Source: Mercurialis annua
Taxonomy: Eukaryota; Streptophyta; Magnoliopsida; Malpighiales; Euphorbiaceae
Direction of reading: 5' to 3'
Length of the DNA stretch: 64,000 bases
Assembly: GCF_937616625.2 (NCBI RefSeq)
Contig: NC_065570.1
Location: 40,865,665 to 40,929,664 of the forward strand
Shown here one piece after another: positions 33,461-57,389 of the stretch. The number at the start of each line of letters is the position of its first letter. The stretch's first letter is position 1. The notes beneath the pieces are model-generated. The model did no database searches and had not been told where the DNA came from. It was given only the letters and a program-made list of their open reading frames with translations. Position numbers and translations under genes: made by a program.

Positions 33461-33643
33461 ATCGTGCACGACAGTACACGATCGTGCACTTGTGGTACAC
33501 GAACGTGTACCATCAATGGTGCACGAACGTGTACCAAAGTACACGAACGTGTACCAATATATGGTACACGATCGTGTACCAAGGTACACGAACGTGTACC
33601 ATCAAGGTACACGATCGTGTACCCCCCTACACGAATGTGCACC
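33461..33643. repeat. Array of ~8 short palindromes, GGTACACGATCGTGTACC type (5' LTR)
   Basis: Eight or so units, either perfect palindromes (GGTACACGATCGTGTACC) or near-palindromes with an AA centre (GGTACACGAACGTGTACC) or GC in the arm (GTGCACG), are separated by 1-10 bp. A larger hairpin, CCGGAAATTGATTCCGG, precedes them at about 33441-33457. Confidence 0.85.
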
Positions 33644-40460: not shown

Positions 40461-42270
40461 AATTGAGAGGGAGAAGGATCCAGAAGCTCTTCTCTTCTTC
40501 CTCAGTTCATTCTTTCTCTCGTACGCCGTTTACGAACGGTTCGTCGCGCGGTTTTCGTTTCTCGTCCGTTTCCGACGTTCTATAACTCCAAACGATCGTA
40601 TTTCGATGGGTATCACGGTAAGCTTGACGTTTTCTCGTTTAAACGAATATAATTTGAGTTATATCGATTCAAAGTTTTAGGCCACGAAACGATTTTTTTT
40701 GTTTTATCGAGTATAGGATTGATATATAGCGTTTTGAGCTTAGAATACGCGTTTTGGTTGAGTTTGGAGCGTTTTTACGTATATAGCAGGTCGGAAACCC
40801 CGGAAATTGATTCCGGGGGATCGTGCACGACAGTACACGATCGTGCACTTATGGTACACGAACGTGTACCATCAATGGTGCACGAACGTGTACCAAAGTA
40901 CACGAACGTGTACCAATATATGGTACACGATCGTGTACCAAGGTACACAAACGTGTACCATCAAGGTACACGATCGTGTACCCCCCTACACGAACGTGCA
41001 CCCTCCGATTCTCGCACCCCGATTCTTCGTACCTCGATTGCATTAGTTGAATTCGCGTATTGAATCAGAAATCAAATAGTAGTTAATCGATTAATGTGAA
41101 TAGTTAACCTAATGAGGTTAAACGGGAATTAAGTTAGAAATGATATACGATCCAGATACCGTTTATCGGAATATACGTGAGAAGCACGACGGTTAATAAA
41201 AGTTCAGTGTGTCGAGTCTTGAGTCTAGAGTCAATCTTAGAATAGGATTCTAATTTAAGTCAAATGTTTTAAAATTTGTTTTAGATCCGGCGAGGCAAGA
41301 AGCAGCTGGACCAGTAGTTCGGGAAGCTTGACGTTTTAAAGCCCCGACATATTTTTGGATAAGCGTTTTCAGTGAGTTTATACGATTTGCTTTTAAAGTA
41401 TTTATTTAAGCAAATATTTTATATTGCTTTATGATGTTTTGCATGATTGCGATGCGAATTATTTTTATGAATTGCATATGCTTGATTTGAAACCAGTATT
41501 GATCCGATGGAACGTGCTACCTATTGGGCGACAATAGGACTGCGTGATCACCAGTTTTGATATAACTCAGCTGGGAGCTGATGATGATTATGAAATTTAC
41601 GATTGAGTATATGATTTGATACGAGTGAGCACTCGGCTACGGTGTAGTCTGGAGTCCCCGTATCTAGTGGCTGGGCCACCAGCGAGTTGGACTCGCAATT
41701 GATATTTATGATTGGGTTGCTCGATTGATTATTAGTATGTTTGAGGATTAAGGTTTCAATCGGATCCTGTACTTGGCTGCATACGATTGAATATCGTTTT
41801 ATGTTTTATGTGAATACTTATTAGTAAATATATGAACTCACTCAGTATATCCCAATATACTGACCTCTCACAGATTTTCTTTCAGGTTAAAGACGCTTTG
41901 AAGCAACGGACTTCTATCCTACTTCCAGAAGTCTGTATTTTTGAGTATGTAAAGAAACAGTACTTTACTCTTAGAGCTGCAGTAGATAAGTATTTTGCAA
42001 GTCAGCTTATAGTATATAGTTTTCTGTAAATATAACTTTAATGTTTTAAAGTTTTAAACGTTTTACGCTTGCTGCGTTATTTATATTGTGACTGCCAGAG
42101 GATATGTGTGCCTGGCGTGTGTGCTTCTGCATGACACGTGTTTATGTATGTCATGCATGACGTTTATGTTTTGCGAAAAATTATTTTATGTTTTTAGGCT
42201 TGCTACGGGTTTCGGAGCAACCACTCCCATTCCCTAGCGCCGGTCTCGGCCCTGAGATTGGGTCGTGACA
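40015..42270 (+). repeat. 3' LTR of the Tekay element
   Basis: 2256 bp, TGTAATACCCC...GTGACA, followed by ACAAA. Highly similar to 32523-34911, with a short TA run and scattered substitutions. Confidence 0.93.
40819..41002. repeat. Array of ~8 short palindromes (3' LTR copy)
   Basis: Same arrangement as 33461-33643, with small substitutions (for example GGTACACAAACGTGTACC in place of GGTACACGAACGTGTACC). The array was therefore already present when the element inserted. Confidence 0.85.
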
Positions 42271-44250: not shown

Positions 44251-45307
44251 CCTAATTGGACTCAAGCTATGAAAGAGGAGATGGACGCGCTACTTAAAAA
44301 TGGCACTTGGAACTTGGTTCCGTTACCAGAAGGAAAAAACCCGGTTGGATGTAGATGGGTATTTTCTATCAAACATAAAGCAGATGGATCCATAGAAAGA
44401 TATAAAGCACGATTGGTGGCAAAGGATTATACACAGACGTATGGAATAGACTATCAACATTCTCGCTGGTGGCTAAATTAAACACCGTTAGGGTGTTGTT
44501 ATCTCTTGCAGCGAATCTTGATTGGCCACTACACCAGTTTGATGTAAAAAATGCCTTTCTCCATGGTGATTTGGAGGAAGAAGTCTACATGGACATTCCA
44601 CCAGGATACACGACAACTTCGGAATCCAAGGTGGTGTGCAAGTTGCAGCGAGCATTGTATGGATTAAAGCAATCCCCCCGAGCATGGTTTGGAAGATTCA
44701 GCTTGGCAATGAAGAAATATGGCTTCCAACAAAGCAATTTAGAGCATACACTCTTCCTAAAACACTAGCTAGGTAAGGTTACAGCTTTGATTGTGTATGT
44801 AGATGATATGATTATCACAGGAGATGATCCAGAAGAAATATCAAGACTTCAAGAACAATTAAGAGCTGAATTTGAAATGAATAATCTAGGAAGACTTAAA
44901 TATTTTTTAGGAATTGAAGTTTCCAGATCAAAGCAAGGTATATTTCTTTGCCAACGAAAATATGTCCTAGATTTATTATATGAGGTTGGACTACTAGATT
45001 GCAAGCCAGCAGATATACCAATCTTCCAAAATCACAAACTTGGAAACCATCCTGATCAAGTACCTACGAATAAAGAAACATATCAGAGATTAGTTGGAAA
45101 ATTGATCTATTTGTCTCACACACGTCCAGATATCGCCAATGCTGTGAGTGTAGTAAGCCAATTCATGCACTATCCAAGTGAAGATCACATGGATGCAGTG
45201 ATGAGAATTCTTCGATACTTGAAGTTGTCTCCTAGAAAGGGGATAATTTTCTCAAAGAACAATCATTTAAAGGTAGAAGGATATACTGATGAAGACTGGG
45301 CAGGAAG
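44251..45307 (+). pseudogene. Copia reverse transcriptase, frameshifted, and start of RNase H
   Basis: RT starts with WTQAMKEEMDALLKNGTW and CRWVFSIKHKADGS. A short deletion near 44455-44462 shifts the frame before LNTVRVLLSLAANLDWPLHQ. FDVKNAFLHGDLEEEVYM, ALYGLKQSPRAWF and the catalytic YVDDMIITGDD (about 44800) follow, with a stop at 44766-44768 between them. The frame continues to the RNase H motif EGYTDEDWAGS, where the Athila target duplication GGAAG (45303-45307) ends it. Confidence 0.9.
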
Positions 45308-45543
45308 TGATAGGAGTAAAATACTCCTATCTTTAGGATGTCTTTTCGTATGCTTTTATGTGCTTTCACCCCACTTTTATATGGAATGGATTAGCTTATA
45401 GAGGGTGTTTATGTTTCAGGGAATCAAGAGCATTACGAAGAGTTTTGAAGCCGGAATAGCGGAAAATGAGCGGAAACGGAAGTCGAGCGCGAAAGGAGCT
45501 AAAGCCGGAAGCGAAAGAAATGAATCCCTCCCCTTCTGAAGAG

Positions 45544-45677
45544 GTGTCTCAATTCGAGACACCCCACTTATATGGGTGTCTCGAATTGAGACACAAAGAT
45601 TCAAGAAACAGATTGCTTAGCAATCTGTGTCTCGAATCGAGACACACCTATAAGTTGCTTGTCTCGATTCGAGACAA
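45544..45677. repeat. Palindrome tetrad 1 (Athila 5' LTR)
   Basis: Four 19-nt units: GTGTCTCAATTCGAGACAC (45544-45562), its exact reverse complement GTGTCTCGAATTGAGACAC (45576-45594), GTGTCTCGAATCGAGACAC (45627-45645) and TTGTCTCGATTCGAGACAA (45659-45677). Between units 2 and 3 lies a different hairpin, CAGATTGCTTAGCAATCTG (45610-45628). Units 1 and 2 can pair with each other over about 22 bp. Confidence 0.95.
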
Positions 45678-45774
45678 GGGTTAACAGAATGCTCGAAATT
45701 TTCTTAGTTTCTTTCCCTATTGGGCCAAACATTCTAGATGGGTTGTATTTTTTATTCCCTATTTTGGGTAGTAC

Positions 45775-45782
45775 TATATAAG
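45775..45782 (+). promoter_or_regulatory. TATA box candidate in the Athila LTR
   Basis: TATATAAG about 100 bp downstream of the palindrome tetrad, repeated at 55959-55966 in the 3' LTR. The position places the tetrad in the upstream U3 region, where enhancers lie. Confidence 0.6.
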
Positions 45783-46757
45783 AATACCTTATTTCCCTTT
45801 TTAGGGTTATGCACTAGATTTAGATTTGTAGCCCCCATTTCCTTTTACCATTCTCAGCCTTTTGAATTACACTAGTTCTTAGTGCTATTTTGAGTTTCAT
45901 GTTATGAATTGAAGATTATTATTATTAATAGAAGATTGTTGGTTTCTCATTATTGTTCTTCATTATCTCTTTTATGCTTGGATCTTCAATTATTGCAAGG
46001 TAATTAATCTCTAAACTATGATTACTCCTAATGCTTACTTATTAGTTATTGCTATGATGTTTGTGATGAGTAGCTAAATCCTTAGTTTAGGGGTTGTTGA
46101 TGAAGTTTGGTTGTGATTAGTTGACTAGGGTTTGATTTGGGTATTAGGGTTTGTAGTGATTTGTATGCTTAATGCCTAGGATAGATTGATCTCCTAATCC
46201 TAGGTTAAGAGGGTAATTAATTAGGCGAGAGTCACTTAATAACCCGGAATTAGCAAATCACTTAATTAGGGTTTAATCACGCGAGAGCGGTTTAGGGCTT
46301 AATCGGTTTTAGGTTAAACTTCGTGATTGGATTAAATTGGTATAATCGAAATCTAATTACGCGAGAGCGATTTAGATTTCGGGGTATTAATTTAATTGCA
46401 ATTAGTTCTAATTGCGGACTCGAGAGAGCGGATTAGGCACTTTTGAAAACTTGACCCGAACTAATTACCAAATCAACCCCGGTTAGCTAGAACGTTTCAA
46501 ATCGATTTAACAACCTCTAAACGCCTTTTACCTATTGTTTTATCCCGTTTATTAATTAATTGCTTTAGTTTTTAATTGCTTCAAGTGTTAATTTCACTAG
46601 TCTTAAATTCCGTAATCATTACTATAATTCCAATTGATCGTTGCTTTCCGAATTGAATTTCCAAATACGTGTTCGCTCACTTTAAACCTCTCGTCTTCGT
46701 GGGATCGATTCCGTATTTCCGGATTACTACAAGTTAGTATTTTTGCTAACAAGTTTT

Positions 46758-46776
46758 TGGCGCCGTTGCCGGGGAC
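46758..46776 (+). other. Primer-binding site, Athila (tRNA-Asp type)
   Basis: TGGCGCCGTTGCCGGGGAC, 6 nt after the 5' LTR. Confidence 0.92.
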
Positions 46777-46923
46777 AAGGTTGCGTTTAATTGATTGAAA
46801 GTATTGTGAAATTCGGTCGAGTTTGCGTTATTTTCTGTTTTTGGTTTATTGTTATTAATTATCTTTCGTGGTTTACACTCGGTTTTCTTGTTTTTGTTTG
46901 TGTAGGGAATTTGATTTTCGTGT

Positions 46924-49623
46924 ATGCACAATACGCGACGAGCAAATCTACCACTAGAACCGTTCCAAGATAACCTCGGTAACTATGAAAGAGGTGTAAG
47001 AAGAAGAGCCCGTATACCCGAAGTTATGAATAACGAGGGAAACAATTATGATGAAGAGGGGAGGTTCAATCCTCTAATGGATGGAGGGGAACAACAATAT
47101 CCACCCGCTCCTCCATTAGGGAATGTGAACCGACCAAGGCAACAAGACCACCCAAGGGATGATCGATCCCAAGCGCACGCACAAGTGCCAAACCAACAAA
47201 GACAAACTTTGGGTGAGTTTTTCTTGCCGGATGTGGACAATGCAACTTTTGGATGCTTCGCAATGCCGGTTCAAGCGGCAACTTTTGAGATCAAGCCGAG
47301 TACCATTCAACTTTTGGAAAATCGTTGTGCCTTCTTTAGGTTGAGTCATGAGGATCCTAAAGAGCATATCGCCAAGTTTTTGGGTGTTCTAAACACATTC
47401 AAGCTTCATGGGATAACGGCGGACCAAATTAAACTTCGGATGTTCCCTTTTTCCTTGAGGGACAAGGCTAGCATTTGGTTGCATTCTCTACCTAATGAGT
47501 CCATTCACAATTGGAGGGAGTTGGCTCAAGCCTTCCTTAACAAATATTTCCCTCATGGCAAGACTACAAAGTTGACTAAAGACATACTTGAGTTTGTCCA
47601 ATTTGAAGGAGAATCACTTCATGAGGCATGGGAGCGGTTCAAGGATTTACAACGAAGTGTACCCCATCATCGGCTCAATAGAGAGCATGTTATACAAATC
47701 TTCTATGATGGGACAAATGTCACTACCCGAGCTACTATCGATGCGGCTTCGGGGGGTTCACTTATGCAAAAGACCTATGAGGAAGCCCTTGAATTGGTGG
47801 AGAAATTGGCCGTGGTTAGTAGTACTTGGGGTCCTATGGAAAGAAGAGCGCCACCTACTCAAAAGTCACTCATGACTCTTGATCAAGTGAGGGAGATGGA
47901 GTCCATAAAAGCCGCAAATGCTTCGCTTCAAGCTCAAGTGGATGCTCTCAAGAAACAAGTCGCTCCTATGCAAAGAAACGCTCCGGTGGCTTATGTTCAA
48001 GTAGGTTGTGAATTTTGTGGTGATTTTGGCCATTCGGGAGGAGAATGCCTAGTTACGGGTCAAGCCTTGAGTGAGCAAGTCAACTACATCGGGGGACAAA
48101 GGCAAGCTAATGACCCCTACTCTAACACCTACAACCCCGGATGGAGGAATCATCCAAACTTCGGGTGGAGAAATCAAGAAGGGCAAGGCAATGCTCAAGG
48201 GCCTAATCAAGCGGGTCCAAGCTTCCAAGGTGGAAATAGACCTCCCCAACAACAAGGAAATTACCATCACAATCAAGGTCATGACAACAATGCGGGTGCT
48301 AGACCTCAACATCCTCCCGGGTTTCAACCTCAAAGAAACATGGATGAAGGGAATATGCTTGCTAAGTTGATGGATGAGCTTAGAGAGATGAAGCAACTTC
48401 AAAAGAATCAAGCCGCCACTAATCAAATGCTTGAGACTCAAATCTCTCAACTTGCTATCAATCTTCAAGGTAGACCACAAGGGGGATTGCCATCTACTAC
48501 GGAGAACAACCCTAGAGAACATGTTAAGGCGGTAGAGCTCCGAAGCGGGAGAAACCTTGAGAAAGCCAACGAAAAGAGGCAAGTTGTCGAGGAGGATGAG
48601 CCTCAAGTGGTAATTGACATAGTAAGTTCAAGTCAAGAGTTGCCAAAGGAATGTGAGGAAATGGTTGTCGAGGTTGAAGAGCCCTATGTGAGGCCACCAC
48701 CACCTCCACCGTTTGTACCACCGGTTCCATTCCCAAGCCGGTTGAGGAAAGCTCAAGGCAACGAAAAATTTCACAAGTTCCTTGAGATTTTCAAGAAATT
48801 GCAAATCAATCTAAGCTTGGCGGATGCACTTCGGGAGATGCCCCAATATGCAAAATTCTTGAAAGACATAATTATGAACAAGCGTAGTTGGGAGCAAGGT
48901 GGGACAATACCGCTCACGGAGCATTGTAGTTCCATAATCCAAAGCAATTTACCGACAAAGCTTAAAGATCCAGGGAGTTTTTTTATACCTTGCACCATAG
49001 GAAATATGAATGCTATAAACTGTTTGTGTGATCTTGGGGCAAGTATTAACTTGATGCCATTGTTTCTTTTTAGGTCTTTATTTGGTGATCAACTGGTAAA
49101 GCGCACCTCGATGGTATTGCAACTTGCCGATCACTCTCTCAAAAAGCCGTATGGGATAGTGGAAGACGTACTCGTTAAAGTGGATAAATTCATCTTTCCG
49201 GTGGATTTTGTGATCTTAGACTATGCGGTGGATAAAGAATGTCCTATGATTCTCGGTCGCCCTTTTATGAACACCGGGCGTGCTCTCATCGATGTTCATG
49301 CCGGCAAGCTCACCTTGAGAATTGATGAGGAAAGTGTGGAGTTTGATATGAAGAGAGTGATGCGGAATGCCATCGAGGAGGAAGATTGCATGAGAATCGA
49401 TTTGGTTGATGAACTTGTGAGGGATACTCTTGAAGCGAGTATGGAAGAGTTTAATCAAGACGGAGTGACGAAAAATCAATTTCTGGGTTCCCTACATGAG
49501 TGTCTCGAATCGAGACACCCAACTAAAGAGAGTGTCTCGAATCGAGACACTAATGAAAAGGGAGCAGAAGCTCCCTATGGTTTTGTCTCGATTCGAGACA
49601 GTCCCATAAGTAGACTGTCTTGA
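46924..49623 (+). CDS. Athila gag-protease, stopped inside a palindrome
   Basis: 899 residues from ATG 46924, the first ATG after the leader. The gag domain spans about residues 120-300 (IKLRMFPFSLRDKASIWLHS, FLNKYFPHGKT and FYDGTN segments). A CEFCGDFGHSGGEC zinc knuckle lies near 363, followed by a Gln/Asn/Pro-rich linker. The aspartic protease near 700 has the Athila DLGASINLM and, near 775, MILGRPFMNTGRALID. The last 40 or so residues translate the second palindrome tetrad (CLESRH, SVSNRDT and SIRDS), ending at TGA 49621-49623 within the degenerate fourth palindrome. Pol continues in the same frame, so gag-pol was one frame until this single change. Confidence 0.92.
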   Translation: MHNTRRANLPLEPFQDNLGNYERGVRRRARIPEVMNNEGNNYDEEGRFNPLMDGGEQQYPPAPPLGNVNRPRQQDHPRDDRSQAHAQVPNQQRQTLGEFFLPDVDNATFGCFAMPVQAATFEIKPSTIQLLENRCAFFRLSHEDPKEHIAKFLGVLNTFKLHGITADQIKLRMFPFSLRDKASIWLHSLPNESIHNWRELAQAFLNKYFPHGKTTKLTKDILEFVQFEGESLHEAWERFKDLQRSVPHHRLNREHVIQIFYDGTNVTTRATIDAASGGSLMQKTYEEALELVEKLAVVSSTWGPMERRAPPTQKSLMTLDQVREMESIKAANASLQAQVDALKKQVAPMQRNAPVAYVQVGCEFCGDFGHSGGECLVTGQALSEQVNYIGGQRQANDPYSNTYNPGWRNHPNFGWRNQEGQGNAQGPNQAGPSFQGGNRPPQQQGNYHHNQGHDNNAGARPQHPPGFQPQRNMDEGNMLAKLMDELREMKQLQKNQAATNQMLETQISQLAINLQGRPQGGLPSTTENNPREHVKAVELRSGRNLEKANEKRQVVEEDEPQVVIDIVSSSQELPKECEEMVVEVEEPYVRPPPPPPFVPPVPFPSRLRKAQGNEKFHKFLEIFKKLQINLSLADALREMPQYAKFLKDIIMNKRSWEQGGTIPLTEHCSSIIQSNLPTKLKDPGSFFIPCTIGNMNAINCLCDLGASINLMPLFLFRSLFGDQLVKRTSMVLQLADHSLKKPYGIVEDVLVKVDKFIFPVDFVILDYAVDKECPMILGRPFMNTGRALIDVHAGKLTLRIDEESVEFDMKRVMRNAIEEEDCMRIDLVDELVRDTLEASMEEFNQDGVTKNQFLGSLHECLESRHPTKESVSNRDTNEKGAEAPYGFVSIRDSPISRLS

Positions 49624-49633
49624 ATCGAGCCAA
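49500..49633. repeat. Palindrome tetrad 2 (in frame at the gag-pol junction)
   Basis: GTGTCTCGAATCGAGACAC at 49500-49518 and 49532-49550, TTGTCTCGATTCGAGACAG at 49583-49601, and a degenerate CTGTCTTGAATCGAGCCAA at 49615-49633. A separate hairpin, GGGAGCAGAAGCTCCC (49560-49575), lies between units 2 and 3, mirroring the LTR cluster layout. Confidence 0.93.
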
Positions 49634-50147
49634 GAGCAAAAGAAGGGGAACCACATTTTTCTGAAATTTTGAAAGTCACCTTCCATTCCGATAATCCGAG
49701 TGATGAGTATTCCGAGGAGGATGAACCTAAGCCAGAGAATTTGAACAAGAGTAGTGGTGTGACTCCACCATCTTCCGAGGTGCCACCACAAGTTGAGTTG
49801 AAGCCACTTCCATCTCATCTCCGGTATACCTTTGTTGGGGAGAATGAGACTTTGCCAATAATCATCTCGAACAAGCTTTCTAAAGAACAAGAGAGGAGGG
49901 TGGTGCAAGTGGTGAAGGAGCATGTATTAGCAATAGGGTGGCGAATCTCCGACATTCGTGGAATAAGTCCGCAAATTGTTATGCATAAGATCAACCTTGA
50001 AGATGGGTCGAAGAAGTCAACTCAAAGACAACGAAGACTAAATCCGAATATGAAGGAGGTGGTCCACAAAGAAATTGTTAAGCTCCTCGACGCCGGAATA
50101 ATCTACCCTATTTCGGATAGTGAGTGGGTAAGCCCAATTCAATTATA
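49624..50147 (+). pseudogene. Athila pol N-terminal part, truncated at RT start
   Basis: Same frame as gag. An acidic linker (SDEYSEEDEPKPE) is followed by the pre-RT region (LPIIISNKL, GWRISDIRGISPQIVMHKI, VVHKEIVKLLDAGIIYPISD) and ends at SEWVSPIQ about 50142, the first conserved RT motif. The catalytic RT core is missing, and sequence jumps to RNase H with a frame change. Confidence 0.9.
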
Positions 50148-51757
50148 CCACCACCGAAAAAGAGATGTTGGCGGTGGTATTTGCTTTAGACAAGTTTCGG
50201 CAATATTTGCTCGGATCAAAGGCCATCATTTATACCGATCATGCCGCCTTGAGATATCTTTTTGCTAAGCAAGACGCAAAACCAAGGCTTATTCGATGGA
50301 TTCTTTTAATGCAAGAGTTTGATGTAGAAATCCGAGACAAAAAAGGAACGGAGAACGTTGTGGCGGATCACCTATCACGGTTAGAAGTTCCGGAACCTAT
50401 TCCAATTGGTGTCGATATTAATGAACGGTTCCCGGATGAAATGTTGATGGTAATCTCGGAAGTGGAGACACCTTGGTATGCGGATATAGCTAATTACTTG
50501 TCTTCAAATGTCATGCCACCGGATCTATCGCACCATCAAAAGAAGAAATTTTTGAGTGATGTGAAACGTTTTTTGTGGGATGAGCCGTATCTTTTCAAGA
50601 TATGTGGTGATGGGATGATTCGGAGGTGTGTATCTTTAAAGGGAGTGATGCCAATTTTGAGCCATTGTCATGAGGCGGATTATGCCGGGCATTATGGGGC
50701 GTCAAGGACCGCGGCTAGAGTGCTAGAAAGTGGGTTCTTTTGGCCTACCCTATTTCGCGATGCCAAGGAGTTTGTGGGGCATTGTGATCGTTGTCAACGA
50801 GTAGGGAACATTTCCAAACGAGATGAGATGCCATTGACCTCAATCCAAGAAGTAGAGATCTTTGATGTGTGGGGCATAGATTTCATGGGGCCATTTCCGA
50901 TGTCTCATGGAAATCTTTTTATCTTGGTTTGTGTGGATTACGTATCAAAATGGGTAGAAGCGGAGGCTTTACCTACAAACGATGCCAAGGTAGTGGTGAA
51001 GTTTCTCAAGCGTCTAATTAACCGATTTGGGACTCCAAGGGTTATCATTAGTGATGGGGGGTCGCATTTTTGCAACCGGCAATTTGAAGTTTTGATGAAA
51101 AGGTACAATGTGTACCACCGAGTTGCTACCCCCTATCATCCTCAAACAAGTGGCCAAGTGGAGGTTTCAAATCGTGAATTGAAGAGGATTTTAGAGAAGA
51201 CAGTAAATGGGACAAGAAAGGATTGGTCCCTCAAGTTGGATGACGCCTTATGGGCCTACCGCACGGCATTTAAGACACCTCTCGGTATGTCGCCTTATCG
51301 AATTGTATATGGTAAAGGGTGTCACTTGCCGGTTGAATTAGAACACAAGGCCTATTGGGCAATTAAAAAGTTGAATTATGACTTCAAGGCGGCCGGTGAG
51401 AAGCGCTTGTTGCAACTTAATGAGTTAGATGAATTTCGACTTGATGCTTACGAGAATGCCAAGCTTTATAAAGAAAGAACGAAGAAATGGCATGACGCTC
51501 ACATCTCACCCAAGACATTTGAAGTTGGAGCTTTTGTGTTGCTTTATAATTCAAGGTTGCGGTTGTTTCCGGGAAAATTAAAATCTCGGTGGAGTGGTCC
51601 GTATAAGATCCGGCACGTGGCGGTTCATGGAGCAATAGAATTAGAAAATCAAAAGGGAGAGACGTTCAAGGTCAACGGAAATCGTTGCAAGCCCTACTTG
51701 GGACCTTTGACGGGTCAAATAGATGACAAGATCTATCTTGCTCCCCCTTCAACTTAA
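50148..51757 (+). CDS. Athila RNase H (partial) and integrase
   Basis: From the deletion junction the frame reads [29 protein letters not shown] and [10 protein letters not shown], the C-terminal two-thirds of RNase H without its first catalytic Asp region. Integrase follows: a His-His/CDRCQR finger (about 50660-50800), catalytic Asp in [10 protein letters not shown], Asp in ISDGGSHF, Glu in [10 protein letters not shown], and a GPYKI-type C-terminal region, ending at 51757. The integrase looks intact, so the protein might still be active if expressed. The first usable ATG is 50165. The deletion of roughly 0.9-1 kb is an estimate from the usual Athila layout. Confidence 0.9.
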
Positions 51758-52521
51758 GTGCCACGGATTGACGGTCGAGCTTTCGACCTTAAACAAGCGC
51801 ACTTGGGAGGCAATCCCAAGAGGTTTGAATTTTAATGCTTTTAGTTGTTGTTTTTGTTTTACAATTACCTTAAGTTTAGTTTTCCTTTGTAATTGTTGAT
51901 GATTTGGCGTATTTCATATGATTGTTATGTTCGAAATAATGCGTGGTATGTTTGGTTTTTGGATGTGTAGGAGTTCGGTGAAGCGATTCTTCAGAAAAAT
52001 CAAGGTTCCCTAAGAAAGGAAAAACATAATAATCTGTTTTCCCTTGTCTCGAATCGAGACAAGCTTCTTAGGAAGTTGTCTCGATTCGAGACAAAAGAAG
52101 CAGATTATTCTGCTTCTCTTTTCTTGGTGTCTCGAATCGAGACACCTATTTAACAAGGGTGTCTCGATTCGAGACACTTGACTTAAGGGGGGGACTTTGA
52201 AATTTTCTCATTGGCTCTTATTTGCTTCACATGGATTGATGATGTGGCACGATCCTAACCCTTCAAGATTCAAATTTTTGACATGGATCACCAACTTCCA
52301 ATACATCTTGGCCCTTCAATCCATAGCTATGAATTTAGCCATAAAAAGGACTCTATCACTTCATCTTCTCCACCATTCCATACCTAAATTAGAAAACCTC
52401 CATATCCAAAAGCTTCTTTCTCTTTCATCAAGCCAAATCTTCAAGAAGCCCTAGCCATCATTCAATCTACCCAAATTCAATTCCAAACACATTTCCGAAC
52501 ACCCTTTACGCCACTCTAGCC
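51758..52521. other. Athila pol-ORF2 spacer
   Basis: Non-coding spacer containing palindrome tetrad 3 and a TTAAGGGGGGGAC tract (about 52183-52195), which resembles an internal polypurine tract. Confidence 0.6.
52044..52177. repeat. Palindrome tetrad 3 (upstream of Athila ORF2)
   Basis: TTGTCTCGAATCGAGACAA (52044-52062), TTGTCTCGATTCGAGACAA (52076-52094), GTGTCTCGAATCGAGACAC (52127-52145) and GTGTCTCGATTCGAGACAC (52159-52177). Other hairpins are interleaved: CTTCTTAGGAAG (52065-52076) and GAAGCAGATTATTCTGCTTC (52097-52116). All four 19-nt units are perfect around a 1-nt centre. Confidence 0.95.
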
Positions 52522-53856
52522 ATGTCACGAGTTACACGATCAAAGAAGACCGTCGCGCAAACTTCGAACCCACCACCACCGGAGGTTGAACCAACGCTAG
52601 GGACCTTCCGTTCTAATCGTAAGAAAAGTGCTTCCGGGTCCAACGTTTTTGGAGTTAACACTCCGGGGGCTCTTCGACACCGTTTTGATACGCCTTTTGA
52701 TATCCGTACCGAGGCGGAAGGGAATGTGTTCAAGAGCCTTAAAAAGAAAGGTATTTCCGCTCCATACAAGATTTGTTGGGAGAGCATGACGCAGTTGGGA
52801 ATCCATGGGATTGTAAAGCCCTATTTCGCTTGGTTGGATTTCACAAAAATGGAGGCTTCTCCACATGAGTATTGTGAGGACCTTACCTATGAGTTCTTCA
52901 CCACGCTTAAACCATCACCAACAAGCGAGACAACTATCACTTTCCGGCTAGAAGGGAAAGAGCGGGAATACACGTTGGCCAACTTGATTGAAGATTTTTC
53001 GTTGTGGGATATGGGATTGAAGTTTATGCCGGAAGAATTTGATGACAATTTGGTTTGGAATGGGGCATCGGGTAAAGCGGTCTTTGATAGCCACAATGCG
53101 AAGCTCAATGAAGTGAGGGATATCGGTGCCGTAGTCTTGCTCAAATGGTATGCTCACTCCTATGTCGGGCGCCATGAGTCCAATAAGGTAACACGATCGG
53201 ATTTGCTAATTCTCCGGGTACTCAAGGATGAAACCAACCCGGATGTGCAAGTTAATGTGGGCTATCGATTCATGAAAATTTTGTTAGAAGCTCCGGAGAA
53301 AAAGAAGAAACTCGGCCATGGTTGGTTTGTGATGCACTTAGCAAGAAAAGACCCCGAGTTTGATGAAAGCAAATACAAGTTGTTACCTCCAAAGATGATC
53401 GATGTGGATCATCTCTCGCATGGGGGCTATGCAAGGAAACAACGGGTTGTTGGAAAATACGTACAAGAACATTGGGAAGACACCCATCCCGGCGAACCTT
53501 TCCCTAGAGCGGGTTGGAGTGAGCCAAGAGAAGAGCCCATACCGAGGCGGCCAAAGGAGCAACCTAGAAGAAAAGATAAGCATATGGCCGGCACTAGTGC
53601 CGAAGGTGGGGAACAATTTGCTAGTGTTCCGGAGGGAGTCCAATGGGAGCAACCGCCCCCATACGATTTCCAAGCGGATCAACGTGCTTTTATGGCGGAA
53701 CAAAGAAGGATGTGGAAGAAGATGGAGTATAGGCAAGAAAGGATGCAACATCGCATGAGGAGGCATGAACAAAAGATACAAGAGTTTTACAATGCCCAAG
53801 GCGGTCCGCGTTTCCCGTCTCCTACACCTTCGCCGGAGCCACCCGAGTTCGATTGA
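52522..53856 (+). CDS. ATHILA ORF-1-family protein (ORF2 position)
   Basis: 444 residues from ATG 52522 with no interruption. A basic N-terminus (MSRVTRSKK) is followed by a globular region (about 55-290) with SLKKKGISAPYKICWESM, EYCEDLTYEFF, REYTLANLIEDFSLWDMGL and YVGRHESNKVTRSDLLIL, then a Pro/Glu/Arg-rich tail and a short Arg/Gln coiled coil (about 390-425). The wording matches the family named for Athila elements, whose role is unknown. It lies where retroviruses carry env, but I see no signal peptide and no membrane segment. Confidence 0.85.
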   Translation: MSRVTRSKKTVAQTSNPPPPEVEPTLGTFRSNRKKSASGSNVFGVNTPGALRHRFDTPFDIRTEAEGNVFKSLKKKGISAPYKICWESMTQLGIHGIVKPYFAWLDFTKMEASPHEYCEDLTYEFFTTLKPSPTSETTITFRLEGKEREYTLANLIEDFSLWDMGLKFMPEEFDDNLVWNGASGKAVFDSHNAKLNEVRDIGAVVLLKWYAHSYVGRHESNKVTRSDLLILRVLKDETNPDVQVNVGYRFMKILLEAPEKKKKLGHGWFVMHLARKDPEFDESKYKLLPPKMIDVDHLSHGGYARKQRVVGKYVQEHWEDTHPGEPFPRAGWSEPREEPIPRRPKEQPRRKDKHMAGTSAEGGEQFASVPEGVQWEQPPPYDFQADQRAFMAEQRRMWKKMEYRQERMQHRMRRHEQKIQEFYNAQGGPRFPSPTPSPEPPEFD

Positions 53857-55491
53857 ACTCGAAGATTTGCTTTCTTCAACTCTAACTCATGCAATTTTCC
53901 GTTTTATTTCATTGCCATGGGGACATAGCATAGAAATAGTGTGAGGAGGGGTTGTTGAAAATATGAATGCGTTAGAGAGTCTCGGTTTTATTGTTTTGTT
54001 TTTGATATTTGCGCGTAGGAGTCTAGTTTGTTTGTTTTATGTTGTTTATTTTGAGTCACCTCACACTAAATCGTTGGCTTGTGTATGTTGAAGCATGATT
54101 AGTGACCTTGGTGTATTTGTGAAATGAAAGTTTTATTCCCGATCAATGAAGTAGCAAGTGAATTTTTCTAGTTTAAATCAATCAAATATGGATGTGTTTA
54201 ATAAGATGCAAGTTGTATGACATGGTTCAATGAAATTCGAGTTAATTCCATGTTAATTGGTGTTGTGTTTTGACAAGTTGTAGTGCTTAATACGGATGCA
54301 TGATGTGTGCTTTTAAATTGCCATTTTTGAAAATTTGAGTATGATTGGCATGTTTTCATAGGAATTAAGTTTTTGGCATGACACCCTTTTATTGAGTGAT
54401 TATTGAGCCTATTTGTTGTTGTGAGTATTGATTGCATGCTAAATTCCTAGAACTTGCTTGGTGTCCGCTCAAAACTATAGAGGTTGAGTGTCAATGACTA
54501 GATGAGTATGGCATTAGGAATACCCCAAATTTTTGAACAAAATCACTTAAAAGCCTACCCTCTACCTTTAGAATCACCATTTTGAGCCTAAGCCTTTCCT
54601 TGTCAAACACAAATCACACAACTCCCTTCAACAAATTACCTCTTAAAACACCCAATTTGATTTGAATGACTTAATGATGAGAAAAATGCGACACTAGCTT
54701 GATGACTAGAAAGAAATGTGAAAGTGTTAAAAGAATAGAAATTTGCCTCGAGAAAAAGGAAATCAAAAGAAAGAAAGAATAAAAACAATATCAAGAAGAA
54801 AAAAAAACAAAAGAAAAAGAGGAAAATGAAGAAAAGAAAAGAAAGAAAGAATAAACAAAGGCAATAAATAAAAAAAAAATTCAAAAGTTCACAAGTGTTG
54901 AAAATCCGAGCTAGGTCGAAAGTGTATTAGAAAAGAGTCGTACAAATCAAGTTTTTAGCCAAGTATCCAAATCTACCTACCCCTAACCCATAGCCAAGTT
55001 ACAACCCTCACAAGTCCATATGATAGTTGTTGATTACCGAACCAAATAGTGGAGTTCGGGACTAAAAGCAAGCTTATGGTGAATAAGCACGATGTGAGTT
55101 TAATTGTTTACCCTAAACACTTGTGTGTGGAGTGACATCTTGTGAGTTTCATTGTGCTTTGCTTGGTTTCTATGAGAATAATGCCATGATTTACCATTTC
55201 ATGTTGGCCAATGTGTGCATGTCCCGTAGATGATTGTAACTCCGAATTTGCTTAACACAAATGCCTTACCAATAGTATTCTCAATGTCATTGGACTATGT
55301 CATTATAATTGCATTCATCGTTGGTTGTATCGCTTACAATTGATAACACTAGAAGTTTGTCTTGTGCCTTCATTGGTTGGGAGTTCGTGTGTTGTCATGT
55401 GTTACAATCACCAAGGTTGTTAATGGTTGTGGTTGATAGTGAGATTCATTTCTTGCTTGGGGACAAGCAAGGTTTTAGTGTGAGGAGGTTT
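53857..55491. other. Athila 3' non-coding region
   Basis: 1.6 kb without a gene between ORF2 and the 3' LTR. It includes an A-rich low-complexity stretch at 54750-54885. Such long 3' regions are usual for Athila. Confidence 0.7.
55476..55490 (+). other. Athila polypurine tract
   Basis: TTAGTGTGAGGAGGTTT immediately before the 3' LTR, the purine-rich primer region typical of Athila. Confidence 0.7.
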
Positions 55492-56935
55492 TGATAGGAG
55501 TAAAATACTCCTATCTTTAGGATGTCTTTTCGTATGCTTTTATGTGCTTTCACCCCACTTTTATATGGAATGGATTAGCTTATAGAGGGTGTTTATGTTT
55601 CAGGGAATCAAGAGCATTACGAAGAGTTTTGAAGCCGGAATAGCGGAAAATGAGCGGAAACGGAAGTCGAGCGCGAAAGGAGCTAAAGCCGGAAGCGAAA
55701 GAAATGAATCCCTCCCCTTCTGAAGAGGTGTCTCAATTCGAGACACCCCACTTATATGGGTGTCTCGAATTGAGACACAAAGATTCAAGAAACAGATTGC
55801 TTAGCAATCTGTGTCTCGAATCGAGACACACCTATAAGTTGCTTGTCTCGATTCGAGACAAGGGTTAACAGAATGCTCGAAATTTTCTTAGTTTCTTTCC
55901 CTATTGGGCCAAACATTCTAGATGGGTTGTATTTTTTATTCCCTATTTTGGGTAGTACTATATAAGAATACCTTATTTCCCTTTTTAGGGTTATGCACTA
56001 GATTTAGATTTGTAGCCCCCATTTCCTTTTACCATTCTCAGCCTTTTGAATTACACTAGTTCTTAGTGCTATTTTGAGTTTCATGTTATGAATTGAAGAT
56101 TATTATTATTAATAGAAGATTGTTGGTTTCTCATTATTGTTCTTCATTATCTCTTTTATGCTTGGATCTTCAATTATTGCAAGGTAATTAATCTCTAAAC
56201 TATGATTACTCCTAATGCTTACTTATTAGTTATTGCTATGATGTTTGTGATGAGTAGCTAAATCCTTAGTTTAGGGGTTGTTGATGAAGTTTGGTTGTGA
56301 TTAGTTGACTAGGGTTTGATTTGGGTATTAGGGTTTGTAGTGATTTGTATGCTTAATGCCTAGGATAGATTGATCTCCTAATCCTAGGTTAAGAGGGTAA
56401 TTAATTAGGCGAGAGTCACTTAATAACCCAGAATTAGCAAATCACTTAATTAGGGTTTAATCACGCGAGAGCGGTTTAGGGCTTAATCGGTTTTAGGTTA
56501 AACTTCGTGATTGGATTAAATTGGTATAATCGAAATCTAATTACGCGAGAGCGATTTAGATTTCAGGGTATTAATTTAATTGCAATTAGTTCTAATTGCG
56601 GACTCGAGAGAGCGGATTAGGCACTTTTGAAAACTTGACCCGAACTAATTACCAAATCAACCCCGGTTAGCTAGAACGTTTCAAATCGATTTAACAACCT
56701 CTAAACGCCTTTTACCTATTGTTTTATCCCTTTTATTAATTAATTGCTTTAGTTTTTAATTGCTTCAAGTGTTAATTTAACTAGTCTTAAATTCCGTAAT
56801 CATTACTATAATTCCAATTGATCGTTGCTTTCCGAATTGAATTTCCAAATACGTGTTCGCTCACTTTAAACCTCTTGTCTTCGTGGGATCGATTCCGTAT
56901 TTCCGGATTACTACAAGTTAGTATTTTTGCTAACA
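55492..56935 (+). repeat. 3' LTR of the Athila element
   Basis: 1444 bp, with five substitutions noticed relative to the 5' LTR (for example ACCCGGAA/ACCCAGAA, TTTCACT/TTTAACT and CTCTCGTC/CTCTTGTC). Followed by GGAAG, where copia RNase H resumes. Confidence 0.95.
55728..55861. repeat. Palindrome tetrad 4 (Athila 3' LTR)
   Basis: Copy of 45544-45677 at an offset of 10184 bp, with all four 19-nt units and the CAGATTGC/GCAATCTG hairpin unchanged. Confidence 0.93.
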
Positions 56936-57389
56936 GGAAGTCTATCTGATAGGAAGTCAACTTCTGGGAATTTTACATTTATTAGTGGAAATCTTGTTAC
57001 ATGGAGAAGTAAGAAGCAGAAAGTGGTGGCATTGTCAAGTGCTGAAGCTGAATTTCATGGGATGGAAAAAGGTCTGTGTGAGCTTCTTTGGCTCAGAAGA
57101 TTGTTAATAGAACTTGGTCTTACTCCTACATGCGAGATGAATTTGTTTTGTGATAGCAAGGATGCTATTGATATCTCACATAATCCAGTTTAACATGACC
57201 GAACAAAACATGTGGAGGTGGATCGTCATTTCATTAAACAAAATCTTGACGCCAAGGTAATTCGATTTCTATTTGACAAATCTAAAGACTAGCTAGCAGA
57301 TATACTCAAAAAGGTTGTCTGCAGCAAGAACTTCTACAGCTCACTTAACAAATTAAGCATTCGAGAATTGCACGCACTTTAAGGGGAAG
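56936..57389 (+). pseudogene. Copia RNase H, right half, and polypurine tract
   Basis: It resumes directly after the Athila duplication: DRKSTSGNFTFISGNLVTWRS, VVALSSAEAEFHGMEKGLCE, LFCDSKDAIDISHNPV, then after TAA (57191-57193) HVEVDRHFIKQ and the usual copia RNase H end with ADILxK wording. Stops at 57191 and near 57290 show decay. AAGGGGAAG (57381-57389) is the polypurine tract. Confidence 0.9.

Follow-up and report, generated by a model that had tools for sequence, protein, structure and literature searches.

A Ty3/gypsy retrotransposon of the Athila type, located in the 64,000-nucleotide stretch of Mercurialis annua DNA analysed here (the window), carries 16 short palindromic units that form four clusters of four (tetrads): one in each long terminal repeat (LTR), one within gag-pol, and one upstream of an additional open reading frame (ORF2). 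We lean toward the hypothesis, based on the sequence comparisons described below, that these tetrads are cis-acting DNA arrays for a predicted dimeric, sequence-specific DNA-binding factor in this Athila-lineage element. A dimeric-protein binding array was one of three readings offered by the original prediction and is the best supported of the three, although its overall interpretation is only partly supported.

Palindrome tetrads and the element that carries them

A search of the whole window for the core TCTCGAWTCGAGA, allowing up to two mismatches, returned 16 units (11 exact, four with one mismatch, and one with two), compared to a mean of 1.45 and a maximum of five matches in 100 shuffled controls, and all 16 fell into the four tetrads and none outside (Table 1), as originally predicted. 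Unit centres are spaced by exactly 32, 51, and 32 bp in every tetrad, which also bears out the predicted span of 134 bp, and the LTR tetrad, expected about 100 bp upstream of TATATAA, lies 97 bp from it. The group previously placed at the gag-pol junction is in gag-pol but sits inside the reading frame, upstream of the reverse transcriptase (RT). Perfect 19-bp palindromes account for eight of the 12 distinct units, so the earlier description of the units as palindromic holds except for LTR units 1 and 2, which are perfect partners of each other though each is imperfect alone, and gag-pol units 3 and 4. The claim that unit ends vary as matched pairs does not always hold, the outer ends being unmatched in gag-pol units 3 and 4 in the window and in LTR unit 4 in relatives. 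The codon offsets of the gag-pol units are 2, 1, 1, and 0, three different values; therefore, no repeated peptide accounts for them, and a protein repeat was rejected.

Judging from their sequences, the three distinct window tetrads are of common ancestry. Their spacers match at 26-31 of 58 positions in the best orientation (permutation p from 0.001 to 5e-5), the pre-ORF2 tetrad being inverted relative to the LTR and gag-pol tetrads, and the spacer lengths (13, 32, and 13 bp) are equal at all three sites. The units are 87-92% identical vs. 45-53% for the spacers. The CpG observed/expected ratio, taken as a ratio alone and apart from CpG island criteria, is 1.11 in the tetrads and 0.82 in the whole element.

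Table 1. Positions of the tetrads, the carrier element, and a second palindrome array in the window
Feature	Position	Strand	Remarks
Target-site duplication GGAAG	left 45303..45307, right 56936-56940	.	flank comparison
5' LTR	45308..46751	+	99.65% identity to 3' LTR
5' LTR tetrad, four 19-bp units	45544..45677	+	core starts 45547/45579/45630/45662
TATATAA box	45775..45781	+	97 bp downstream of 5' LTR tetrad
gag part of gag-pol and putative protease	46915..49623	+	Retrotrans_gag match (Pfam)
gag-pol tetrad, in coding frame upstream of RT	49500..49633	+	core starts 49503/535/586/618
RNase H and integrase part of pol	50132..51757	+	Pfam
Pre-ORF2 tetrad	52044..52177	+	core starts 52047/079/130/162
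ORF2 (env-position ORF), 444 aa from first Met	52522..53856	+	ORF call
3' LTR	55492..56935	+	99.65% identity to 5' LTR
3' LTR tetrad, units as in 5' LTR	55728..55861	+	core starts 55731/763/814/846
Second palindrome array, Ty3/gypsy-type LTR	33474-33642, 40833-41001		eight units per LTR like GTACACGAWCGTGTAC, up to 3 mismatches

The carrier element is inserted in a Copia pol gene (with flanking RVT_2 ORFs). Its order of gag, RNase H, and integrase, with Retrotrans_gag and rve domains, is that of Ty3/gypsy elements, and ORF2, between pol and the 3' LTR, is the additional ORF of Athila. Directly after the 5' LTR, at the position of the primer binding site, stands TGGCGCCGTTGCCGGGGA, which may be the tRNA-Asp primer binding site of Athila. 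Neither protease nor RT gave a Pfam match in the window copy; a protease is probably present in the gag part, and about 0.9 kb is missing directly upstream of the RNase H part, the expected place of RT, where three related loci (L008, L012, and L015) have 923-927 bp of extra sequence. The gag-pol frame of the window copy ends at a stop within the fourth unit of the gag-pol tetrad, and is open through the tetrad in L008 (~1926 codons) and L015 (~1606 codons). ORF2 showed only a sub-threshold Pfam match (Transposase_32, E 0.026) and no match at E 1e-3 in the protein-database search.

Conservation in close copies and changed words in diverged families

Across the genome, exact cores number 928, compared to eight for the reversed control, and among the matches listed 48 of 50 form clusters at Athila-like loci, the other two being lone units. 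Among these listed matches there is little of the random genome-wide scatter that would have spoken against the original prediction. The pre-ORF2 tetrad with its 32/51/32 spacing is present in all 30 of the best ORF2 loci, the window's own included (the ORF2 comparison gave 88 scored matches in the genome, 45 of them outside the loci compared). The expectation that other copies keep the sites holds for the close copies compared, except that the gag-pol site of L012 is gone with a larger deletion, and fails at gag-pol in a sister element (integrase 78.5% identical), which has just two quasi-palindromes near the primer site. Since this sister element lacks it, the gag-pol cluster is dispensable in some families. 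Grouping in fours is usual for the window palindrome but not universal (five units in L014), and one to eight units occur in the stretches of other families. BLAST directions hinted at an inversion of the LTR tetrad between subfamilies, which direct alignment ruled out. Two plant-like Athila relatives in bacterial assemblies (L001 and L002; integrase 61%) contain one CGAWTCG core each and no palindrome with a stem of at least 7; no LTR pair was found in either, and they are thus informative for the internal region only. In viral contigs, neither a unit pair at the tetrad spacing nor an integrase relative was found.

In more distant families (ORF2 48-56% identical), the palindromes upstream of ORF2 have different arms, in the classes TGCAC-GAWTC-GTGCA, AGCTC-GAWTC-GAGCT, and TGCTC-GAWTC-GAGCA; the centre CGAWTCG is shared across families (CGGATCG in some units), and the arm changes are compensated, both palindrome halves being altered together. 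These compensated changes strongly support the earlier claim that the palindrome itself is conserved. One family (ORF2 53% identical) carries TGCACGRWTCGTGCA at both LTRs, in gag-pol, and before ORF2, and its gag-pol cluster has the exact 32/51/32 spacing in an open frame. In 14 pre-ORF2 stretches of diverged families we counted 58 exact CGAWTCG cores (simple shuffles: mean 1.2, largest 6). L050 and L052 had no exact core; L052 has three units with a variant centre also found in the TGCAC family, and L062 contains a single unit (two under a looser rule). The arms are complementary at offsets 4 to 8 in 51, 51, 51, 48, and 47 of the 58 cores, against maxima of 48, 52, 41, 32, and 28 in shuffles that treat the units as unrelated. 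All four pair types occur at offset 8, and offset 5 gave no covariation above column make-up (51 paired vs. a shuffle mean of 50.2). That the word is rewritten in both halves of the mirror, and at corresponding sites, suggests, on sequence grounds, that some factor recognises the palindrome.

Predicted role of the arrays and alternative explanations

Under the hypothesis we favor, each CGAWTCG-centred palindrome would be bound by a dimer of a sequence-specific protein, and several dimers might align along the same side of the double helix. The unit spacings tend toward whole numbers of helical turns (R 0.62 at a period of 10.5 bp over 21 class/spacing values, equalled in 0 of 20,000 uniform draws; p 0.0017 for 14 distinct values), the spacings having been entered by hand for chosen clusters and related values counted as independent; the best-fitting period was 9.8-10.2 bp, and spacings of 48 and 57 do not fit the phase. 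The LTR array, upstream of the TATA box, may act as an enhancer or chromatin-control element, the pre-ORF2 array could have the equivalent role for ORF2, and the gag-pol array may be a third docking site within the element body. The effect would be transcriptional or anti-silencing, with a factor that may derive from the host or from the element. That one family carries its new word at each of the four sites would be expected of a single shared factor.

Alternatively, the tetrads might act through nucleic-acid structure, with neighbouring units pairing in the genomic RNA as two long hairpins around a smaller one (for packaging, dimerisation, translation control, or small RNAs) or forming DNA cruciforms. 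We consider this improbable though worth weighing, and the RNA packaging or processing signal of the original prediction is less favored. RNA folds of the three window sites have z of -12.3 to -14.3 and a common three-hairpin layout, but arrays of repeated palindromes fold in this way regardless of role. In 18 of 25 cases, neighbouring centres 30-34 bp apart are A followed by T, which restores full pairing between neighbours, and the perfect partnership of the imperfect LTR units 1 and 2 points in the same direction. Positions 8-10 differ between units of one cluster, yet self-complementarity is more frequent there than between units paired at random, and the facing sides of neighbouring units are likewise more complementary at these offsets; a dimer that ignores these positions needs no such match, and hence base pairing or palindrome-making mutation probably contributes. 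In addition, maize Sirevirus palindromes are described as small-RNA hotspots in the parts of two reports drawn on here (PMC5311732, PMC10760457). However, a hairpin requires neither that CGAWTCG be kept across families nor that one word occupy several sites, and the 5' LTR copy, upstream of the TATA box, is probably untranscribed, whereas the 3' copy would be transcribed. The central hairpin, which had been predicted as interleaved in each group, folds better than simple shuffles at the three window sites and in two relatives (p 0.0105 or less) but was not found in L007, L013, and L014, and we rejected it as a required part.

It is also possible, though quite unlikely in our view, that the tetrads have no selected function, with template switching in reverse transcription or replication perfecting the palindromes and old duplicates persisting. 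A precedent exists in bacteria, where quasi-palindromes are corrected by template switching, and self-complementarity reaches past any conserved word. Nonetheless, this explanation does not account for exact spacing at three sites while the spacers have fallen to about half identity, or for one family having identical new arms at every one of its four sites.

The units are very unlikely to be auxin response elements, in which auxin response factors would bind TGTCTC inverted repeats spaced by 5 bp. The window word reads TGTCTC-N5-GAGACA, and thus contains a TGTCNN inverted repeat, and AtARF5 is able to bind such IR5 sites; however, IR5 is not the preferred spacing, being bound more weakly than IR7/8 and weakly auxin-inducible according to the portion of PMC10690724 used here. 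Because the other three of the four arm classes (TGCAC, AGCTC, and TGCTC arms) lack TGTC, this reading was dropped as a general answer. The least probable alternative, a miniature mobile palindromic module inserted repeatedly into Athila elements, which the original prediction had also raised, might fit the inverted pre-ORF2 tetrad of shared ancestry and a faint similarity of the gag-pol and pre-ORF2 flanks (p 0.005-0.01, uncorrected for 30 comparisons), but is disfavored by occupancy of the same sites in the family with 53% identical ORF2 and by the scarcity of units outside Athila-like clusters, those two of the 50 listed both being single.

Comparison with known systems

No Athila counterpart of the tetrads was found in the literature searched, including by sequence letters, as originally claimed, but a close counterpart has been published for the Ty1/copia Sireviruses, the palindromic repeated motifs (RMs), which are Sirevirus-specific among the Ty1/copia elements compared in the portion of PMC2829016 drawn on here. 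In both systems, palindromes form clusters a short distance before the TATA box in the LTR and again upstream of the env-position ORF, in many copies per element, and the words vary between elements around a common core. The core, however, is CGG-CCG in 12 of 13 published RMs (PMC2829016) and CGAWTCG here, and the window carrier is not a Sirevirus, given its integrase after RNase H and its Retrotrans_gag and rve domains. The fixed 32/51/32 spacing and the cluster in the gag-pol coding frame also set the tetrads apart, no gag-pol cluster being reported for Sireviruses in the same portion of PMC2829016. A further trait of the RM clusters is that they form CpG islands. By analogy, we find it reasonably plausible that the arrays operate like Sirevirus RMs, with a coding-region site and family-specific words in addition. 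Such palindromic arrays are already known from Sireviruses, and a Ty3/gypsy Athila equivalent at the LTR, before ORF2, and at a coding-region site suggests convergent or general control logic for elements with an extra ORF.

Tnt1 box I is located in the LTR, upstream of the promoter, and is not known to form internal clusters. It is among the symmetric cis-activators of LTR elements mentioned in the text of PMC2829016 used here and resembles the tetrads in its dyad-symmetric LTR repeats.

The compensated change of word between families of one genome represents a natural experiment on factor identity and on element-factor co-evolution. VANDALs, a group of DNA transposons, offer a comparison. 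They encode VANC, an anti-silencing protein that binds a family motif and removes methylation, and their short motifs are, as here, family-specific, repeated within a family, and diverging between families (excerpted text of PMC10398659), although the binder is encoded there whereas the reader of the retrotransposon palindromes is putative. It is tempting to speculate, as a long shot, that each family has its own palindromic address word and its own dimeric reader, perhaps element-encoded. Such a factor would bind the arrays in the LTR, in mid-body, and before ORF2, and would permit transcription or remove silencing for its own family alone, word and reader changing together. ORF2 is a candidate reader by its position and fast divergence only. 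If true, an LTR retrotransposon would possess self-recognition of the VANC type.

Finally, the window contains the second palindrome array listed in Table 1, with no GTACACGAWCGTGTAC-type match elsewhere in the window. Like the tetrads, it consists of palindromic units in LTRs, but with a different word and a spacing of 20-25 bp.

Four groups of palindromes in one element

The palindromes lie in a Ty3/gypsy element that is inserted in a Copia pol, is bordered on either side by GGAAG and has LTRs of 1444 bp that are 99.65% identical to each other. Pfam matches cover gag, RNase H and integrase, we infer that a protease is present, and ORF2 (the env-position ORF) is placed 5' of the 3' LTR; about 0.9 kb is absent at the expected RT position relative to the related copies L008, L012 and L015. 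We call the element Athila-type based on its layout, a primer site that we take to fit this type, and the naming in the original prediction.

Sixteen 19-bp units were predicted in four groups of four (both LTRs, gag-pol, and pre-ORF2), and a search of the window at up to two mismatches recovered 16, all within the four groups, with never more than 5 matches in 100 shuffles. The units are centered 32/51/32 bp apart in every group, and hence the spacers measure 13/32/13 bp. These spacers point to a common ancestry of the three distinct groups: inverted pre-ORF2 spacers match those of the LTR and gag-pol groups at 31/58 and 29/58 positions (p 5e-5), and gag-pol matches LTR spacers at 26/58 directly (p 0.001) and 24/58 inverted (p 0.004), the relative orientation of the latter two groups not being clear-cut. 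Since identity among the three groups is 45-53% for spacers vs. 87-92% for units, the units and their spacing have been kept while the intervening letters drifted.

The gag-pol group sits in frame, with gag on one side and RT on the other, within a linker that exceeds its counterpart in the Athila-type contig L001 by about 50 residues. The codon offsets of the group's four units are 2, 1, 1, and 0, and thus no shared peptide is kept. The frame through the group is open in L008 (~1926 codons) and L015 (~1606 codons); the window copy has a stop codon within unit 4. L001 and L002 are plant-like contigs, 99.7% identical, from two bacterial assemblies (Solirubrobacter and Geminicoccus), where they probably represent contamination.

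The window also holds a second, unrelated Ty3/gypsy-type element, in each LTR of which a different palindrome (like GTACACGAWCGTGTAC) is repeated eight times at intervals of 20-25 bp; this palindrome has no further match in the window at up to three mismatches.

Positions of elements and arrays discussed in the text
Feature	Sequence	Position
5' LTR	window	45308-46751
3' LTR	window	55492-56935
Second element, LTR array	window	33474-33642
Second element, LTR array	window	40833-41001
ORF2 of the TTGCACGAWTCGTGCAA family	C3	6409696-6411144
Quasi-palindromes of the sister element	L018	6541 and 6572
Tandem LTR-like copies	L007	4228-7073
Cluster of perfect palindromes	L017	3589-3874

Occurrence in the genome and in diverged families

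The exact core (the window's own word, with TGTCTC arms) occurs 928 times in the window's assembly (451 Mb, 55 contigs) and its reversed pattern 8 times. Among the first 50 core places listed (all on contig C1), 48 belong to clusters at loci resembling the element or its LTR, L007 being counted among these loci by a 71% LTR match alone; the remaining two (L010 and L011) are single units in sequence without similarity to the element. L007 also contains two Athila-type LTR-like copies, 90% identical, in direct tandem with no gap. The copy L012 is without the gag-pol site, which was lost within a larger deletion.

Searching with ORF2, we scored 88 of 812 candidates (48-100% identity). The pre-ORF2 group is spaced 32/51/32 in all 30 best loci (at least 95% identical), which include the window itself and three previously fetched copies. 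Thirteen more pre-ORF2 stretches (~900 bp each) were picked for divergence, bringing the total to 43 of the 88 matches, and 12 of them have at least three units; the other, L062, has one (two under a looser rule). Four arm classes share the same center: TGTCTC (L050, L051, L055), TGCAC (L052, L053, L062), AGCTC (L054, L056, L058-L061), and TGCTC (L057, part of L058). L051 (ORF2 identity 63%) keeps the exact word and spacing, each core of L050 (ORF2 identity 76%) departs from the word at one or two positions, and all three units of L052 have the variant center CGGATCG or its complement. In the AGCTC class the number of units ranges from 3 to 8, with spacings mostly of 31-33 and 41 bp and closer ones in L058.

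To avoid selection by symmetry, every exact CGAWTCG core was taken from 14 stretches including the window's, giving 58 cores in 12 stretches (simple shuffles: mean 1.2, largest 6); a non-palindromic stretch (CCCTTGACGAATCGGGTGGAA) present in five copies is included in this count. Arms are complementary at offsets 4-10 in 51, 51, 51, 48, 47, 34, and 29 of the 58, against shuffle maxima, which ignore relatedness, of 48, 52, 41, 32, 28, 31, and 25. At offset 5 the 51 pairs are C-G and do not exceed the shuffle maximum of 52, so this offset shows no covariation.

One family carries the same new word at all sites: TTGCACGAWTCGTGCAA occurs 128 times in the genome (control 0) and, around one ORF2 on contig C3, in both LTRs, pre-ORF2, and gag-pol, with four units at each site in the fetched pieces. 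Spacing is 32/51/32 at gag-pol (where the 501-bp piece has an open frame), 32/52/32 before ORF2, and 21/52/33 in both LTRs. The CGGATCG center is found in 3/4 LTR and 1/4 gag-pol units, some outer pairs are mismatched, and the orthologous gag-pol spacers agree with the window's at 22/58 positions (p 0.046). Another word, AGCTCGAWTCGAGCT, occurs 467 times (reversed control 41); among 50 listed places, some of its clusters pair up at distances of 6.6 to 11.1 kb, a separation like that of two LTRs, and we could link none of these to an ORF2 locus.

Next to L009 lies a sister element (integrase 78.5% and gag 52% identical to the window's element) with no tetrad at the position matching the gag-pol group, and therefore the arrays are not obligatory. 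It has two CGAWTCG quasi-palindromes (in L018) 31 bp apart near the primer site, probably within its LTR.

Known counterpart and candidate mechanism

The prediction cited no known Athila feature of this kind, and among the top-ranked titles of an open-access library we found no account of one, nor with the core's letters as the query. The nearest known counterpart is the Sirevirus repeated motif which, in the consulted part of its description (PMC2829016), is likewise palindromic, clustered in the LTR before the TATA box and upstream of env, with differing words around a common core. The Sirevirus motif belongs to another element class and has another core, and the same part of the description mentions no gag-pol cluster, a feature that the window's element does have.

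Judging from sequence patterns, we propose a dimeric DNA-binding factor as a candidate reader of the palindromes. Such a factor would account for the conserved core and palindromes, one word at all sites of a family, the tolerated coding context, the array position 97 bp before the TATA box, and spacing near helical turns. The best period was 9.8-10.2 bp, with 48 and 57 out of fit, for spacings entered by hand from 17 clusters, values that are not independent. However, a dimeric factor alone does not explain why bases 8-10 vary freely yet match across the palindrome and between facing sides of neighbors, or the A-then-T alternation of centers (18/25); base pairing or palindrome-perfecting mutation probably contributes as well. 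The arrays fold strongly as RNA (z about -12 to -14), which is expected of such an array whatever its role.

Finally, L017 contains a different kind of element, a cluster of perfect palindromes 26-32 bp long flanked by 117-bp inverted repeats that are 89% identical.
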